Shown: in pieces, positions 54,115 to 61,818 of the stretch
How the letters are laid out: the number at the start of each line of letters is the position of its first letter
How positions within the stretch are numbered: the first letter of the stretch is position 1
Source: an alpha proteobacterium L41A
GTDB taxonomy: Bacteria; Pseudomonadota; Alphaproteobacteria; Caulobacterales; Caulobacteraceae
Length of the DNA stretch: 64,000 bases
Assembly (NCBI GenBank): GCA_000335735.1
Contig: AMYY01000004.1
Span: 62,001 to 126,000 of the forward strand
Reading direction: 5' to 3'
Made by a program: the position numbers and the translations under genes
The notes under the pieces: model-generated
Told to the model about the DNA's origin: nothing
Database searches by the model: none
Seen by the model: only the letters and a program-made list of their open reading frames with translations

Positions 54115-55530
54115 TCATGCCGGCAGGCGCTTGAAGCCTTTCCGGGTCATCGCACCCCAGGACTGGGTCTTGCGCAGGAACTGCCAGGTGCCGTGCAGAC
54201 GCCACAGGTTGTTGATCTGGCGGTAGCCGAAGTTCTCCACCACGGCCATGAGCGCCAGGATCACGAGGTGGCGCGTCTTCGGGAAGCGCCGCAGTTCGCT
54301 TTCTTCCAGGGCCAGGGCCCCGACCGATATGACGACGCCGAAGGTGAAGCTGACAGCCAGGAAGGCCAGCAGGTATTCCACCGACAACAGCCCCAGCATC
54401 CACAGCACGGGGATCAGGATATAGCCGATCATCTCGATGACCGGTCCGATGACATCGACAAAGAGGATATGTCCGAACCCGGCGATCCCGACCCGTCCGA
54501 AGCCCCGTCGCCACATCATGTCGCCGTGGCGCTGGAAGGTCTCCAGGGCGCCGCGGTGCCAGCGGGCCCGCTGGCGGCCCAGAACGCTGAAACTTTCCGG
54601 GGCCTCGGTCCAGCAGACGGGCTCGGGAATGAAGGCGACGCGATAGGGGCGCTTCTGCGATCGCATCAGCCGGTGAAGCTTGACGACCAGCTCCATATCT
54701 TCACCCACCGTGCCGTGGGTATAGCCGCCAACCTCGAGAACCGCAGACCGGCGAAACAGGCCGAACGCGCCCGAGATGATCGTCAGGGCGCCGATCCGGC
54801 TCCAGGCCAGGCGGGCCATCAGGAACGCCCGCAGATATTCGACGGTCTGCAACAGCGCCAAGGGGTTGGTCGGCAGGCCGATCTCGACGACGCGCCCATG
54901 ATCGATGCGGCAGCCGTTGGCGATGCGCACAGTCCCTCCGACGGCTACGGTCCGCACCGGATCGTCGACGAACGGTCGCACCGCACGCAGCAGGGCGTCA
55001 GGCTCGAGAAGGGAGTCGGCGTCCATCGAGCAGACGATCGGGGCCCGCGCCACATTGATGCCGGCGTTCAAGGCGTCGGCCTTGCCGCCGTTCTGCTTGT
55101 CCACGACGACGAGCCGCGGCTGGCTCGGCGTCCCCCATATGCCGCGGATCGGTTGGTGGCCGATCTTCAGATCGTGGGCCCGCTCGATCGGCGCGAGCTC
55201 GAAGGCGTCGATCAGAACTGCCAAGGTCTCGTCCGCAGAGCCGTCGTTGATGACGACGATCTCGAAGTTCGGATATTGCAGCGCCAGAAGCGACCGCACG
55301 CTTTCGACGATGGTCAGGGCTTCATTATAGGCCGGCGCCAAGAGGGCGATGGGCGGCGAGGCCTCGGCGTAACGGCGCCAAAGCACGCCGACGGCCGGCG
55401 TCGAAGGCGTCTCGATCAGCGACGCCGCAGCGAGGACGAGCTGGAGCATGTAGATCACGTTCTGGAACAGGCCCGCCGCGATCACGAACAGCGCCACGAA
55501 CGCGGCAATGGCTTCGATCGACGCGGTCAT
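54115..55530 (-). CDS. Processive family 2 glycosyltransferase (membrane-embedded)
   Basis: This 471-residue inner-membrane polysaccharide synthase-like protein has one or two N-terminal transmembrane helices (AIAAFVALFVIAAGLFQNVI). The GT-A domain has PPIALLAPAYNEALTIVESV, NDGSADETLAVLIDAF, the DXD in IVCSMDADSLLEPDALLRAV, and the TED-like and QXXRW motifs in VCWTEAPES and LGRQRARWHRGALETF. About four C-terminal helices follow. This is the layout of PgaC, cellulose and hyaluronan synthases. No PilZ domain is present. It ends a four-gene operon with overlaps. Confidence 0.93.
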   Translation of the reverse strand: MTASIEAIAAFVALFVIAAGLFQNVIYMLQLVLAAASLIETPSTPAVGVLWRRYAEASPPIALLAPAYNEALTIVESVRSLLALQYPNFEIVVINDGSADETLAVLIDAFELAPIERAHDLKIGHQPIRGIWGTPSQPRLVVVDKQNGGKADALNAGINVARAPIVCSMDADSLLEPDALLRAVRPFVDDPVRTVAVGGTVRIANGCRIDHGRVVEIGLPTNPLALLQTVEYLRAFLMARLAWSRIGALTIISGAFGLFRRSAVLEVGGYTHGTVGEDMELVVKLHRLMRSQKRPYRVAFIPEPVCWTEAPESFSVLGRQRARWHRGALETFQRHGDMMWRRGFGRVGIAGFGHILFVDVIGPVIEMIGYILIPVLWMLGLLSVEYLLAFLAVSFTFGVVISVGALALEESELRRFPKTRHLVILALMAVVENFGYRQINNLWRLHGTWQFLRKTQSWGAMTRKGFKRLPA

Positions 55531-56594
55531 GACGAGGCGACGACTTGAACGGGCTCTGGGGCGGGTCTCAATGGCGTCAGGTCGAGGGGAACCGGCCCGA
55601 TGGAGTGTTCAGGTTTGGGAAGCGGCAGGCCCAGAGTCTGCAGCGCCTCGGTCGCGCGAAACCGCACCCACCATTCGGCGTCGTTCAGGCAAGCCGTCAG
55701 CGACGGCGCCAACTGGCGGGCGCCCAGTTTGGCGGCGGTGGCGCAGGCTTCGGCGCGCACGTCCCAGGCGGCATCATGCAAAGCGGCCTCGACGGCCGCC
55801 GATGCGGCGGGATGCGCCAGCTGGCCGATCCCCCTGACGGCGGCGAGCCGGAGCGCGACATTGGGATCGCTCGTGGCGTCGATCAGGGCGGGCAGACAGC
55901 TATAGGCGCCGCTTCCGGCCAGCGCCTCGGCCAGGACGGCGCGCAAGGTCGGCGACCGGTCCGGGCTGTTGAAGACGGCGAGGGCCGCATCAGGATCGGC
56001 GCTGGCCAGCCGGCGCAGGACGGGGAGGTGTTGCAAGGATTCGGTCTCCCCGCGCTTCTCCAGGTCCACGACCACCGCCTCAATGGACGGCGCGGCGTCG
56101 ATCTCGATCAGACTGCGAATGGCGGCGATCCGCACTTCCCCATCCCGGGAGGCCATATACAGCGATGATAGGGCTGCGGTGGTGGCTTGCGATGGAAATG
56201 CGGCCAGCGCTTCGGCCGCCGCCAGCCTTCCGGTGCGGCTGCCCCGGTTCAGTCGATCACGCAGCGTCGCATCGACCTCAAGACGTGTGAGCGCCGCCAC
56301 GAGGCGTTCACGTTCCGCGCCCCGAACGAGGCCCATCACCTCCAGCAGGGACTCCGCAAGCAGTCGCGCCTGGTGCTGATAGGCTTGCAGACGGGCTTCC
56401 CCCTCGGCATCGCCGCCCATGATCTGCAGATAGGCGCGCGAAACCGACTTGCGATGCTCGGCGCGGTTGGCCTGGGAGCGTTCGCGAAACAGTCGGCTCA
56501 GGATCAGCCAGCTCATCCATGCCAGCGCCGCCGCCATCAGCAGAAGCGACGTCATCCAGAGCTGGTTGAGCAGGGCCGTCATCAGAACCGCCAC
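55527..56594 (-). CDS. Membrane-anchored HEAT-repeat protein
   Basis: This 355-residue protein has an N-terminal transmembrane helix (WMTSLLLMAAALAWMSWLIL), a charged linker, and then at least six helical repeats of HEAT/PBS-lyase type. Examples are DEGEVRIAA-like units such as MASRDGEVRIAAIRSLIEID, SDPNVALRLAAVRGIGQL, HDAAWDVRAEACATAAKLG and NDAEWWVRFRATEALQTLG. Such repeats are protein-binding scaffolds. It overlaps the GT2 start by 4 bp and the barrel gene by 13 bp, so it is probably a stoichiometric partner of the synthase. Confidence 0.85.
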   Translation of the reverse strand: MAVLMTALLNQLWMTSLLLMAAALAWMSWLILSRLFRERSQANRAEHRKSVSRAYLQIMGGDAEGEARLQAYQHQARLLAESLLEVMGLVRGAERERLVAALTRLEVDATLRDRLNRGSRTGRLAAAEALAAFPSQATTAALSSLYMASRDGEVRIAAIRSLIEIDAAPSIEAVVVDLEKRGETESLQHLPVLRRLASADPDAALAVFNSPDRSPTLRAVLAEALAGSGAYSCLPALIDATSDPNVALRLAAVRGIGQLAHPAASAAVEAALHDAAWDVRAEACATAAKLGARQLAPSLTACLNDAEWWVRFRATEALQTLGLPLPKPEHSIGPVPLDLTPLRPAPEPVQVVASS

Positions 56595-57676
56595 CCCACG
56601 CCCAGGTCGATGGCGTCGCGGTCATAGGCGGCGCGATCCTCGTGCGTGCCGAATAGGCGCAGAGTCAGGCGTGGACCGATATCGACCTCGGCGCCGACGG
56701 TTCGCGCCTTCACATCGACTGTGGCGCCGTCTGACGATTCCGGCGCATCCGCGAACCCCGCGCTTAGACGCACCGCCGGTCCAAGGGCCCAAAGGCCGCG
56801 AACGGCGTATCCGTCGCGATGCTTTCCGCGCTCATCCCAGACGTTGATCCAACGTCCCTGAACGGAAAGGCGGCGGTCGAACGCGGAGACTTCAAGCCCC
56901 GGCTGCACGGTCGAGACGGTTCCGACCTTGTATCGCGCCACGCCGGCGTCCGCGATCATCTGCACATTATGGCTCAGGGGTTTCGCCCCTCCGATCTTCA
57001 GCGCGGCCTGCGGACGGTGATCGGCATCGATGGCCCCGCCGACGGCGATATAGGCCGATCCGTCGCCCAAAGGCGCGGAGTGCCTCGCCTCGAGATAGAC
57101 GTCAGCGTCGCCGAAACGCTCGCTGCGCTCGGCGAGCAGCTCAAACGTCCGGCCGTCCTGAAAGCGCCGGGCGACCGAGATGCCCTGCTCGCGCCAGGGC
57201 GGGAGCGAGCCGGAAAGCTCGCTGTGGGAGACACGCACGTCCATCCGCCAGGCGCCATCCGGCGTCTGAGTTTCTTCGGAACGGACCGCAGCGATCTCCG
57301 CCGCCCTGCCGGGATCGGTGCGCGCGGCGTCAGCGAGGGCCGCATCGACGGCCGCCCGATCGCCCTTTGCCTGAGCGACGCGCGCGCGTCCGATATAGGC
57401 GTCAGTATAGTCTGGAGCGGCCGCAATCACCTGATCGAAGGCTTGTTGGGCCTCGTCCAGACGACCGAGCGCCAGCAGGGACAGCCCCCTGTTCAGTCGC
57501 GCATCGACATTGTCCGGCTGTTCGGACAGCACGCGCTCAAACAGGCCCGCCGCATCCAGATGGCGGCCGGCGAGACGCGCAGCGACCCCTCGATCATAGA
57601 GATTTTCCGCCTGAGCGAAGACCGGCTCAGCCGACGCCAGAAGCAGGGCGGCTGTCGCCGCCATCACCATTCGCAT
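56582..57676 (-). CDS. TPR protein with YaiO-type outer-membrane beta-barrel
   Basis: This 364-residue exported protein has a signal peptide ending near VFAQ and about three TPR units (residues 25-130: AARLAGRHLDAAGLFERVLS, ARLNRGLSLLALGRLDEAQQ, DAYIGRARVAQAKGDRAAVD). A C-terminal 12-strand-like barrel follows, ending DRDAIDLGVGWRF with terminal Phe. This is the order of PgaA-like exporters in miniature, and the barrel resembles YaiO, which in E. coli lies next to the putative glycosyltransferase gene yaiP. It overlaps the upstream receiver gene by 50 bp. Confidence 0.85.
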   Translation of the reverse strand: MRMVMAATAALLLASAEPVFAQAENLYDRGVAARLAGRHLDAAGLFERVLSEQPDNVDARLNRGLSLLALGRLDEAQQAFDQVIAAAPDYTDAYIGRARVAQAKGDRAAVDAALADAARTDPGRAAEIAAVRSEETQTPDGAWRMDVRVSHSELSGSLPPWREQGISVARRFQDGRTFELLAERSERFGDADVYLEARHSAPLGDGSAYIAVGGAIDADHRPQAALKIGGAKPLSHNVQMIADAGVARYKVGTVSTVQPGLEVSAFDRRLSVQGRWINVWDERGKHRDGYAVRGLWALGPAVRLSAGFADAPESSDGATVDVKARTVGAEVDIGPRLTLRLFGTHEDRAAYDRDAIDLGVGWRF

Positions 57677-58055
57677 GAGACCTGTCCGCGGGAAGAAGAC
57701 GGCTGATGCGCGCGATCAGCTCATCGGGGATAAACGGCTTGACCAGATAGTCGGCCGCGCCAAGTTTCAACGCTCCCACGATATCCTCCTCGCGTCGCAA
57801 GGACGTCAGCATGATAACGGGCACATCGGACGTTGCGGGATCGGCCCGCAGACGCCTCAACACCTCGAAGCCGTCGACCACCGGCATCATGCCGTCAAGA
57901 ATGGCGAGGTCGGGACGGAGCTCGCGAACCTGGGACAAGGCCGCAGCGCCGTCCTCGGCCGGGAAGACCATGTAACCCGACGCCGACAACTTGTGGACGA
58001 GCAGCTCACGCAGGAAGGCGTCGTCGTCTGCAATCAGGATTCTGTAGGCAGCCAT
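57627..58055 (-). CDS. Single-domain response regulator, first gene of the glycan locus
   Basis: This 142-residue lone receiver has an acidic pair in RILIADDDAFLRELLVHKL, phospho-acceptor Asp54 in LAILDGMMPVVDGFEVLRR, the switch Thr in VIMLTSLRREED and the Lys in LVKPFIPDELIARI. A 15-20 residue polar tail follows and there is no output domain. An adjacent GTG at 58058 is an alternative start. It is divergent from the hybrid kinase and heads the operon for the barrel, HEAT and GT2 proteins. Confidence 0.9.
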   Translation of the reverse strand: MAAYRILIADDDAFLRELLVHKLSASGYMVFPAEDGAAALSQVRELRPDLAILDGMMPVVDGFEVLRRLRADPATSDVPVIMLTSLRREEDIVGALKLGAADYLVKPFIPDELIARISRLLPADRSHANGDGGDSRPASGVG

Positions 58056-58238
58056 CACTGGTCGACTCTCTCGATGATGTCAGAGGGTTGTATCCCAACT
58101 TCCTGAATCAGCCGTTCACGAATTCGCACGGACACGTCCAAAGCGAAATGAGACGGCCAATGCGGGCGGCGCCGCGAGAATTGACCCCAGATTAATCGCA
58201 TGGCGCGAATGTGGCGGTCTAATCGTCGCGAGGGGTCT

Positions 58239-61200
58239 ATGATTCAGGCGTCAACTGCCCGCGTGCCTTCGAAAGATCGCGCAAAGTCGCTGTTCACCCT
58301 CGCCGGCCTCGCTGTGCTCGCGAGCTTGCTGACGATCTTTTCGATCGTTCACGGCCGCGCGGGCGGCCCGGTCTCGGCGATCTGGGCGCTCAATGCCCTG
58401 TTCTTCGTGGTGGCGTCGAAATCGCGACGCACAAGGTGGCCCAGCCTGGTCGGGGCCATGTTCCTCGGCAACCTGTCCGCGTATCTGATCGCCGGCGATC
58501 CGGCCCTACGCGCCTTGATGTTTGCGATCGCCAATGTCGTCGAAGTCGTCTTGATGATCGTCGCCCTTAATCGGCGATCAAAGGTACGGCTGTTCCGGCG
58601 ATCAACCATCCTGCGCTTTATCGGCTGGACATTCGTGGCCGTGCTTCTGTCGACCGCTGTCGTATTTGCAGCCTTGATCGTCTTCGGAGAGCCGGCGAAA
58701 GCGCATTGGACCGCAGTATGGCTGGCCGCCCATACGCTGGGCTTGCTGTTCTTCACGCCCATGATCTGGGCCCTGTCAAACCGTCAGGCCAGATTGGATC
58801 TGCGCCGGAATGTCGGCTCCATGCTGCCGGACCTGGTTCTGGTCGGCGCGGTAACAGCCGCCGTCTTCGTCCAGTCGCGTTATCCGCTGCTGTTTCTCGT
58901 TCCGCCCACCCTTGTTTTCGTCGCCTATCGACGCGGTCTGGCCGGCGCGGCCATCGGCCTGTTCATCGTCGGCGCCCTCGGGCTTGCCTTCACTCTGGGC
59001 GGGACCGGTCCGACGCGTCTGGTCGACAGTCACGTCTCGGAACAGCTTCTGGTCCTGCAGGGGTTCCTGGTGGTCAATGCGCTGGCCGCTCTGACGGTCG
59101 GATCGGCGGCGTCGGAAAAGCGCCGCCTCATCGAGCGCCTCCAGCGTCACCGCGCGTCGCTCGCCAGACGCGCGCACAAGGAGCGTCTGCTGATCCAGCA
59201 AGCGCGGCTCGCCGAGCGCATGAGCCAGGTCGGCTATTGGACCCTCAATCCGTCGACGGGAGACGTTTACTGGTCGCCTGAAGTCTATCGCATCCACGGC
59301 GTAACGCCCGAGGAGTTCAACCCTCGTCTGGGCGATGCGCTTCAGTTCTACCCGGAAGGCGATCGCCAGCGAGTGTCGGAAATTCTGCGGGTCGGCATCG
59401 AGACCAAGGCGGCCTGGTCATTCGAAGCCGATCTGCAAAAGGCCGACGGTTCGCTGATCCGCGTGCGGTCCATGGCCGAAATGCAGATGAACGACGCCAA
59501 TGAGGTCGAGACGATCTTCGGCGTGTTCAAGGATGTGACACGCGATCACGAGATGCTGGAAAAAGTGCGTGAGCAGGAAACGCTGTACCGGCTGCTCGCG
59601 GACAACTCATCCGACGTCATCGCTCGGTTCGGCACCGACAGCGTGTTCACCTATCTGTCGCCCTCCATCAAACCCCTCCTCGGCTATGACCCGGACGACC
59701 TGATCGGCAAGTCGACGTCGCTGGTCGTTCATCCGGATGATTTCGAGCGCGTCCTGTCGGACTGGCGCCGAGGCCTGGCGTCGGGGCGGCCATTCTCCGT
59801 CGAGTACCGGGGCGTGCACCGCGACGGCACGATCAAATGGCTGGAGGCGCGGCCCTCCATCACCCGTGACGAAGACGGCCAGATTCTGGAGTTCATCGAC
59901 AGCGTCCGCGACGTAACGGACCGGCATGCCCGTGAGGTCGAACTGGCGAAAGCGACCGAGGCGGCGAATGAGGCGACGCGGGCCAAGGGCGCCTTCCTTT
60001 CCAACATGAGCCATGAAATCCGGACGCCGCTGAACGGAATCATCGGCTTCGCAGATCTGCTGTCGGACGCGCAGACGGCGGAGGAACGCGCCCACTACAT
60101 CGCCCGCATCCAGGGCGCAGGCCAGGCGCTGCTGCACGTGGTGAACGACATCCTCGACTTCTCCAAGATCGAGGCGGGCAAGATGACGGTCGAACGCGTG
60201 CCGTACGGCCCGGCCGCGCTCAGCGCGGAAGTCGTCGAACTGGTCAGGGCGGCGAACGCCAGCTCGGACCTCGTCTTCACCCACGCCGTCGACCCTGACG
60301 TCGCAGCGGCCTATGTCGGCGATCCGGCCCGTATCCGTCAGGTCCTGCTCAACCTCGTCGGTAACGCGGCCAAGTTCACGCGCCAGGGTGCGGTGGACGT
60401 GCGGGTCGCGCGCGTCGATGGGCGGCTAGGCTTCATCATCAAGGATGACGGCCCCGGAATCGCTCCTGACAAACTGTCCCGCGTGTTCGAAGGGTTCTCT
60501 CAAGCCGACGAGTCGGTCGCCCGGACGTTCGGCGGCACAGGCCTGGGTCTGTCCATCAGTCGGTCGCTGGCGCGGCTGATGGACGGCGACATAAGCCTGA
60601 CCAGCGTCTTGGGCGAGGGCACGATCGCAACCCTGCTCGTGCCCTGGGTCGAAAGCGATCAGAAGCCTGTGACTGCCGCGCAAAGCGCCGCCTCTCTCAA
60701 CAATGCCTCACTGCGTGTCATGGTCGTCGACGACGTCGAGATCAATCGGGAGTTCGTCGAAATCGGCCTTGGCCGCGCAGGTCACAATGTCGAAAGCCAT
60801 GCTTCCGCCGAATCTGCCCTGGCGGCCCTGAGCGCGGGCGCAAGCGTGGACGTGATCCTCATGGACGTCCAGATGCCGGGCACCGACGGGCTGACGGCGA
60901 CGCGCGCGATCCGCAAAATGGCTGGGGCGGCGTCGAAGTTGCCCATCATCGGGCTGACGGCCAACGTCCTGCCTGAACAGGCGGCCGCCTGTCTGGCCGC
61001 CGGCATGGATGATCATTTCGGCAAGCCCATAGACATGGCGCGTCTTGTGGAACGCCTGGCGAAAGTCTCAAGCCGAAGAGACGCAACCGCTGTTTCGGCG
61101 CCCCAAGCGGCGTCCGCAGACCCCGCCATGGACGCCCTCGCGCGCCGCTATACCGCCCATCTGCACACCGTCGCGGAGCAATTGCGGCAGTTAATCGCGG

Positions 61201-61415
61201 ATGGGGACCATCCCAAACTGGCCGCCCTGGCTCACTCGATCGCCGGGACTGCCGGAAGCCTGGGCTTCGGCGCCGTCTCCGACGCAGCCTTCGAACTGGA
61301 GGCGGCTTGCCGCCGGGTCGCCGACAGCAGTGGCGAAGCGACGTCAGTTGCTGGCGACGTCGAGAATTTGATAAGCGCCATATCGAGGTTGCCTGTCGGC
61401 GATGCGAGCCGATGA
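58239..61415 (+). CDS. MASE1 hybrid sensor histidine kinase with receiver and Hpt domains
   Basis: This large inner-membrane phosphorelay kinase has about 1058 residues. An N-terminal MASE1 module of about eight transmembrane helices (e.g. GPVSAIWALNALFFVVASKS) is followed by two PAS domains (VGYWTLNPSTGDVYWSPEVY and VIARFGTDSVFTYLSPSIKP). HisKA has His592 in NMSHEIRTPLNGIIGFADLL, then HATPase with GNAAKFTRQG and GTGLGLSISRSLARLMDG. The receiver has Asp876 in VILMDVQMPGTDGL, and a C-terminal Hpt has His999 in LAHSIAGTAGSLGFGAVSDA. ATG 58239 has AGGGG just upstream; ATG 58200 is an alternative start 13 codons longer. Confidence 0.92.
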   Translation: MIQASTARVPSKDRAKSLFTLAGLAVLASLLTIFSIVHGRAGGPVSAIWALNALFFVVASKSRRTRWPSLVGAMFLGNLSAYLIAGDPALRALMFAIANVVEVVLMIVALNRRSKVRLFRRSTILRFIGWTFVAVLLSTAVVFAALIVFGEPAKAHWTAVWLAAHTLGLLFFTPMIWALSNRQARLDLRRNVGSMLPDLVLVGAVTAAVFVQSRYPLLFLVPPTLVFVAYRRGLAGAAIGLFIVGALGLAFTLGGTGPTRLVDSHVSEQLLVLQGFLVVNALAALTVGSAASEKRRLIERLQRHRASLARRAHKERLLIQQARLAERMSQVGYWTLNPSTGDVYWSPEVYRIHGVTPEEFNPRLGDALQFYPEGDRQRVSEILRVGIETKAAWSFEADLQKADGSLIRVRSMAEMQMNDANEVETIFGVFKDVTRDHEMLEKVREQETLYRLLADNSSDVIARFGTDSVFTYLSPSIKPLLGYDPDDLIGKSTSLVVHPDDFERVLSDWRRGLASGRPFSVEYRGVHRDGTIKWLEARPSITRDEDGQILEFIDSVRDVTDRHAREVELAKATEAANEATRAKGAFLSNMSHEIRTPLNGIIGFADLLSDAQTAEERAHYIARIQGAGQALLHVVNDILDFSKIEAGKMTVERVPYGPAALSAEVVELVRAANASSDLVFTHAVDPDVAAAYVGDPARIRQVLLNLVGNAAKFTRQGAVDVRVARVDGRLGFIIKDDGPGIAPDKLSRVFEGFSQADESVARTFGGTGLGLSISRSLARLMDGDISLTSVLGEGTIATLLVPWVESDQKPVTAAQSAASLNNASLRVMVVDDVEINREFVEIGLGRAGHNVESHASAESALAALSAGASVDVILMDVQMPGTDGLTATRAIRKMAGAASKLPIIGLTANVLPEQAAACLAAGMDDHFGKPIDMARLVERLAKVSSRRDATAVSAPQAASADPAMDALARRYTAHLHTVAEQLRQLIADGDHPKLAALAHSIAGTAGSLGFGAVSDAAFELEAACRRVADSSGEATSVAGDVENLISAISRLPVGDASR

Positions 61416-61818
61416 GAAGAGCAGAAGCGCGTGCGTGCAAGTCCCGGTGATCGTGCTGGAGGACGATCCGTTCTGGATGAACGAGATCAAACTTATGTTG
61501 GACGCGCAGGGCGAGACCGTCCTGCAATCAACCTCCGTGGACGCCGCATTGAAGCTGCAGGCAGAGCACCCGGACGCCATGTTCATCGTCGACATCATCC
61601 TGCCCGAGCGAGATGGGATCGACTTCATCAAGACCGCGCGCGGCTTGAATCCGAAAGCCAAGATCCTGGCCATCAGCGGCGGCGGTCGGGTCGGGTCCGA
61701 GTTCTATCTTAAGCTCGCGGACGCCTTCGGCGCCGTGTGCACCCTGCAAAAGCCGTTCGACGACGCTCAACTGTCGAAAGCCCTAGCCCGGCTAAGGGCG
61801 TCGGGCGCGGAATCGTGA
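61402..61818 (+). CDS. Single-domain response regulator downstream of the hybrid kinase
   Basis: This 138-residue lone receiver has VIVLEDDPFWMNEIKLMLDA, phospho-acceptor Asp64 in FIVDIILPERDGIDFIK, the region ILAISGGGRVGSEF where the switch residue is Ser, and the Lys in LQKPFDDAQLSKAL. It overlaps the hybrid-kinase stop by 14 bp and is probably the Hpt output. No DNA-binding or enzymatic domain is present. Confidence 0.87.
   Translation: MRADEKSRSACVQVPVIVLEDDPFWMNEIKLMLDAQGETVLQSTSVDAALKLQAEHPDAMFIVDIILPERDGIDFIKTARGLNPKAKILAISGGGRVGSEFYLKLADAFGAVCTLQKPFDDAQLSKALARLRASGAES

Follow-up and report, generated by a model that had tools for sequence, protein, structure and literature searches.

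A recurring receiver-HEAT-glycosyltransferase module in bacteria and archaea: a probable signal-controlled surface-glycan synthase system with a YaiO-type barrel in diderms

The operon and its products

The window described here is a stretch of 64,000 nucleotides of contig AMYY01000004.1 (positions 62,001 to 126,000) from a 3.1 Mb genome of the Caulobacteraceae; the relatives of its genes are found in Brevundimonas and other members of that family. It contains a single operon of four overlapping genes on the minus strand, coding for a receiver-only response regulator (RR1), a YaiO-family outer-membrane protein, a HEAT-repeat protein and a membrane glycosyltransferase of the processive-synthase type (GT2). 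A sequence-only reading of the same DNA had described the last three genes as a compact system for making and exporting a glycan. These genes are real and overlap as it had stated, and both the sequence and matches to Pfam and TIGR04390 bear out their identities. The unit, however, has four genes, RR1 having been missed, and a kinase and a second receiver gene are linked to it.

RR1 (57627-58055, or from an alternative GTG start at 58058) is CheY-like and matches PF00072 with 100.4 bits over residues 7-118 of 143. The YaiO protein (56582-57676) scores 93.1 bits against TIGR04390 (OMP_YaiO_dom, cut-off 32), is the only protein in the genome to match this model, and also has TPR profile matches. 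The HEAT protein (55527-56582), which has one N-terminal membrane anchor, matches PF13646 with 81.4 bits against a curated cut-off of 27.7, and its start is most likely the ATG at 56582. GT2 (54115-55530) matches PF13641 with 96 bits (cut-off 27). The overlap is 50 nt between RR1 and YaiO, 1 nt (TGATG) between YaiO and HEAT, and 4 nt (ATGA) between HEAT and GT2; the two short junctions look as they would in a translationally coupled operon.

Conservation of the module

The HEAT protein is present in 24 of 199 Caulobacteraceae genomes. The order RR1-YaiO-HEAT-GT2, with RR1 as the first gene, is kept wherever the contig permits. Identities among the closer relatives are mostly 38-75%; GT2 evolves most slowly, and HEAT and YaiO fastest. 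In a sample of 398 Pseudomonadota genomes, the GT2 subfamily was found in 14 (most matches with E < 1e-160, the weakest 1e-79 at the cut-off used), and the HEAT gene adjoins the GT2 gene in all 14 loci. As a control, the profiles used here were also run on nine loci of true PgaC in this phylum, and none of them gave a match to HEAT, receiver or YaiO.

A wide scan of GTDB prokaryotic genomes with the GT2 alignment produced 80 loci spread over about 20 phyla, archaeal ones among them. The scan required two GT2 motifs and retained the best 80 matches, so that these counts are not abundances. The loci come from Alpha-, Gamma- and Deltaproteobacteria, Bdellovibrio, Bacteroidota, Gemmatimonadota, Acidobacteriota, Nitrospirota, Elusimicrobiota and Spirochaetota, and further from Bacillota, Actinomycetota, haloarchaea, Thermoplasmatota and others. 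By profile search, a HEAT gene lies directly upstream of GT2 in at least 62 of the 77 loci with usable upstream sequence, compared to a background of one HEAT open reading frame elsewhere among 5,541. Pfam HEAT repeats were also recognized in two loci that the profile had missed (L085 and L140), more weakly in three others (L121, L143 and L120), and in proteins of L100 and L128 in which HEAT and GT2 are fused. A chance neighborhood is rejected by this adjacency, taken together with the Pseudomonadota loci and the PgaC control. Recurrence in other genomes, which the sequence-only reading had set beforehand as its own test, is thus seen in the family, in the phylum and in the wide scan.

The module is defined here by a HEAT gene that immediately precedes a gene of this GT2 subfamily or is fused with it, and the window operon has it in the first form. 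The receiver (REC), HEAT and GT2 constitute its core and are found together in many bacteria and archaea, whereas YaiO is an addition in diderms. Two loci deserve mention for their own sake. One genome (G171) carries a second RR-HEAT-GT2 copy without YaiO (L021/L168). In another (G663), a GT2 homolog (L071:1501-2856) has lost DxD, GED and QxxRW but retains its HEAT partner, and is likely a pseudo-synthase.

The glycosyltransferase

The catalytic motifs of GT2 are nearly invariant among 83 relatives. They comprise D96 of NDGS (whose conservation was partly preselected by the scan), the DxD motif D170-A-D172 (55015-55023, minus strand; 82 of 83 relatives), G276-E-D278, and the QxxRW motif Q320-R-A-R-W324 (54559-54573, minus strand), the Q and W of which align in all 83 relatives and the R in 80. 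The combination of D, DxD, [GT]ED and QxxRW with C-terminal transmembrane helices, and in diderms with an outer-membrane barrel bearing TPR, is that of synthase-dependent exopolysaccharide systems. In this respect the motifs and the barrel support the earlier view that the parts suit glycan synthesis and export. ARAGORN calls a tRNA-Ser (CGA) antisense within the catalytic region (54997-55086, plus strand), which is probably a false positive.

Several genes found near the synthase in other phyla may point to a glycan product. In six Bacilli loci the synthase gene is followed by one for UDP-glucose dehydrogenase, and an 800-residue protein of the sulfatase superfamily recurs at loci of Bacteroidota and others.

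Two secreted families were encountered as well. The first, of about 700 residues and secreted or anchored, occurs in 15 HEAT-GT2 loci, a haloarchaeon included, mostly where YaiO is absent (members include L080:4847-6967, L104, L092, L095, L128, L112, L123, L145 and L079). Profile searches of Pfam, NCBIfam and the Protein Data Bank gave no match to it; judged by eye, its motifs resemble those of a clan-A glycosidase, and it is possibly an unnamed glycosidase family. The second, of about 310 residues, occurs at Bacillota, Elusimicrobiota and Geobacter loci (for instance L097:6320-7252 and L107:12627-13547), carries a DGISLDIEP-like motif, matches no Pfam family above cut-off and to the eye looks like a glycosidase too.

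These data bear on whether GT2 makes a polymer at all. It might instead decorate a lipid carrier or an envelope protein with a single sugar or a few, with HEAT as a factor for substrate delivery or assembly and YaiO acting at the outer membrane in another way than as an exit, for instance as a porin or an anchor at the surface. Genes for substrate supply, a hydrolase or a deacetylase are absent beside the window operon, as would suit such an enzyme, and among the GT2s with few membrane helices there are non-polymerases in both archaea and bacteria; one of them, PcManGT, ranks 14 in the fold search. The YaiO barrel is also smaller than those of known exporters, and OmpG, a simple porin, is among its fold matches. 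Nevertheless, a role of this kind is quite improbable: GT2 has QxxRW, DxD and [GT]ED together with several C-terminal helices, its best fold matches are hyaluronan, cellulose and chitin synthases, the linked proteins in other phyla resemble secreted glycosidases by eye, and the TPR-plus-barrel architecture is like that of BcsC and PgaA. We infer that GT2 polymerizes a sugar.

The YaiO barrel

The AlphaFold2 model of the window YaiO (predicted local distance difference test, pLDDT, 92.5) follows a signal peptide with TPR helices (residues 19-136) and a 14-stranded barrel (residues 143-363). Its top fold match in the Protein Data Bank is the cellulose exporter BcsC, with OmpG next and PelB lower. 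A YaiO-type barrel gene on the same strand and within 4 kb of the module was found in 34 of the 53 loci outside Bacillota, Actinomycetota, Mycoplasmatota and archaea, and in none of the 27 loci of these four groups, as tallied by hand from the locus list and record titles. Locus L018 has the barrel without the TPR part. Because it is confined to diderm-side loci, the protein fits the role of the outer-membrane exit.

The HEAT protein and its fusions to GT2

The HEAT anchor spans residues 14-32 in the GTG-numbered frame. Judged by the charge around this single anchor, its orientation is N-out/C-in in 76 of 77 homologs: there are on average 6.5 Lys/Arg in the 25 residues that follow it and 0.5 in the 8 residues that precede it. 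Because the positive charge follows the anchor, the HEAT repeats are predicted to be cytoplasmic, on the same side as the catalytic domain of GT2 and the receiver. The sequence-only reading had left open whether HEAT bridges synthase and exporter or is a regulatory subunit. The topology rules out a periplasmic bridge, and a regulatory subunit of the synthase is the better reading.

HEAT and GT2 are fused in six loci (L100, L128, L130, L131, L132 and L142), and a quick tree places these fusions together in a single clade with support. The outgroup branches of this tree are very long and its deep forks are open, so that no phylum-level history is claimed from it. Among the L130-L132 and L142 fusions, the N-terminal halves that were scanned have diverged too far to give a clear match to HEAT in Pfam. 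The L128 fusion was modeled from an alignment of fusions and GT2 rows only (pLDDT 85, predicted template-modeling score 0.78). In this model a membrane helix is followed by an α-solenoid, two further membrane helices, the GT2 domain and the C-terminal membrane helices, and the nearest folds are again hyaluronan, cellulose and chitin synthases. Four of the fusions directly follow a regulator that combines an ODP-family metallo-β-lactamase domain, GGDEF and a C-terminal REC (L100:5307-7352, L128:5421-7430, L130:5924-7561 and L142:752-2770); an oxygen or redox input is possible there.

The receiver and the linked kinase

Of 100 loci, 80 have a REC gene nearby, which has the size of a single domain in 47, like that of the window, and several domains in 33. 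In 31 of these 33 the last REC ends no more than 5 residues from the C-terminus. The preceding domains vary, ODP-GGDEF being found in Clostridium and Spirochaetota and Hpt-REC-GGDEF architecture in Bacillota. Because the terminal REC stays constant while the domains before it change, it is suggested to be the output domain, which HEAT would read. An RR1 homolog (L026:34-423, genome G171) has Glu in place of the phosphoacceptor Asp and an EE acidic pair, and resembles a locked or phosphomimetic receiver.

The receiver could alternatively act elsewhere. The synthase would then be the same, with HEAT as a constitutive, PgaD-like scaffold; the receiver would regulate another target, such as an enzyme of cyclic di-GMP (c-di-GMP) metabolism, and GT2 would be controlled by c-di-GMP or by transcription. 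GGDEF domains are indeed found within the operon or next to it in Bacillota, Spirochaetota, Stutzerimonas and Luteimonas, solenoids of HEAT repeats serve quite generally as platforms for protein binding, and no REC-HEAT fusion was seen. However, the window and most alphaproteobacterial loci have bare REC proteins only, the C-terminal REC is the element shared by otherwise differing regulators, and Pfam scans of the window GT2 detected neither PilZ (its lack had been noted earlier) nor MshEN. Such an arrangement is therefore unlikely.

Divergently upstream of the operon, on the plus strand, lies a gene for a hybrid histidine kinase (58200-61415; MASE1-PAS-PAS-HisKA-HATPase-REC-HPt by Pfam). It is overlapped by the gene of a second receiver-only response regulator, RR2 (61402-61818, plus strand; PF00072, 49.9 bits). 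A kinase and a second REC gene also accompany other alphaproteobacterial operons, where they are divergent (L155, like the window), convergent (L156), downstream (L157, L158 and L072) or upstream (L075, L076 and L173). That they are retained although their arrangement is shuffled points to a functional link rather than inertia. On the other side of the operon, beyond GT2, are a tRNA with a CAT anticodon and a gene for a SIMPL protein.

A model of the system

The operon probably encodes a signal-controlled, synthase-dependent surface-glycan system, in which GT2 is the synthase, HEAT its regulatory subunit under the control of REC, and YaiO the exit. The widely conserved module most likely represents a variant of synthase-dependent export, in which a polysaccharide synthase is under two-component control. 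In the inner membrane, GT2 would polymerize sugar from cytoplasmic nucleotide-sugars and thread the chain through its own membrane helices. HEAT would be anchored in the same membrane with its solenoid in the cytoplasm. RR1 would be charged via the neighboring MASE1-PAS hybrid kinase and RR2, dock onto the HEAT solenoid and turn the synthase on or off post-translationally. In diderms the TPR part of YaiO would then be the path of the chain through the periplasm, and the barrel its way out.

A more far-reaching proposal, made tentatively and with somewhat less than even confidence, is that the module represents a widespread, undescribed class of polysaccharide synthases common to bacteria and archaea, in which the receiver acts directly through a HEAT subunit and not through c-di-GMP and PilZ, and the orphan YaiO is the diderm exit.

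Several observations weigh against the surface-glycan model. No substrate gene, deacetylase or product was identified beside the window operon. Of the 53 loci outside the four barrel-free groups, 19 gave no YaiO-type barrel, and neither did the second copy of the module in G171 (L168). The barrel has 14 strands, compared to 16 in BcsC. The contact between REC and HEAT is deduced from gene order, there being no fusion of the two, and about 20 of 100 loci have no nearby REC gene, although some of these contigs are short.

If the model is correct, a new polysaccharide-synthase system exists in about 20 phyla, haloarchaea included, and a two-component receiver can serve as the direct switch of a glycan synthase. 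YaiO, an orphan family of outer-membrane proteins that is also present in E. coli K-12, would gain a functional setting. The module would furthermore help in annotating many loci that are now labeled just response regulator, HEAT protein and glycosyltransferase.

Comparison with known systems

No paper linking YaiO or HEAT to this GT2 subfamily was found in the open-access literature, which is weak evidence of absence; the earlier statement that no described system has exactly these parts stands to that extent. The operon could in principle belong, under a divergent annotation, to one of three known systems, namely poly-GlcNAc Pga, cellulose Bcs or NfrBA-YbcH. The general layout, an inner-membrane GT2 with an outer-membrane TPR barrel, is the same, and PgaC/IcaA is the closest characterized model. 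But GT2 is below every curated synthase cut-off. It scores 146.2 bits against the PgaC model TIGR03937 (cut-off 422.3), so the earlier description of it as PgaC-like is right as to the nearest relative by profile and holds only distantly. Against the BcsA model TIGR03030 it scores 63 bits (cut-off 699). NfrB is unmatched by the GT2 profile. GT2 is 26% identical to PgaC compared to 45% to a Bdellovibrio homolog, its subfamily is a separate group in the quick tree, and in genome G654 a true PgaC occurs alongside a HEAT-GT2 system. Membership in Pga, Bcs or NfrBA-YbcH is refuted on these grounds, and a divergent version of one of them is very improbable.

Pga resembles the window operon in having a GT2 synthase and an outer-membrane TPR barrel. 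It differs by the PgaB deacetylase and PgaD: neither is found in the operon or among its neighbors (RR1, YaiO, HEAT, kinase, RR2, the tRNA and the SIMPL protein), as the sequence-only reading had observed, and none of the nine PgaC loci has a HEAT or REC neighbor by the profiles used. Bcs shares the synthase fold, and its BcsC barrel is the top match of YaiO. The cellulose system is, however, under c-di-GMP control, whereas the window operon has no PilZ domain and no BcsB, and control by REC-HEAT is proposed here.

The E. coli yaiS-yaiP-yaiX-yaiO locus, invoked earlier as a parallel, does have a YaiO barrel (257 residues) beside a GT2, in a neighborhood whose annotation includes a deacetylase and a disrupted acyltransferase. 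The parallel is weak, because YaiP is a GT2 of another kind (27-29% identity across part of the protein) and neither a HEAT nor a receiver gene is annotated there.

The Chlorella virus hyaluronan synthase is the sole solved synthase that matches most of GT2 by profile (positions 22-370) and is its best fold match, but the identity in the structural alignment is 15-16%. Hyaluronan synthase works alone and is not known to have HEAT or REC partners.

The nearest system in concept is NfrBA-YbcH of E. coli, which makes the NGR polysaccharide, the receptor of phage N4 (PMC8669469, PMC8669472). It combines an inner-membrane GT2 with DxD, TED and QxxRW, an outer-membrane TPR-containing protein and local signal control (PMC8669469, PMC8669472). 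The homologs of NfrB surveyed are mainly from Proteobacteria, and in Gram-positives they are rare and occur without the pore (PMC8669469). Unlike the window operon, NfrBA-YbcH is controlled through MshEN and c-di-GMP and has no HEAT protein, and the sequence of NfrB does not match that of the window GT2 to any meaningful extent.

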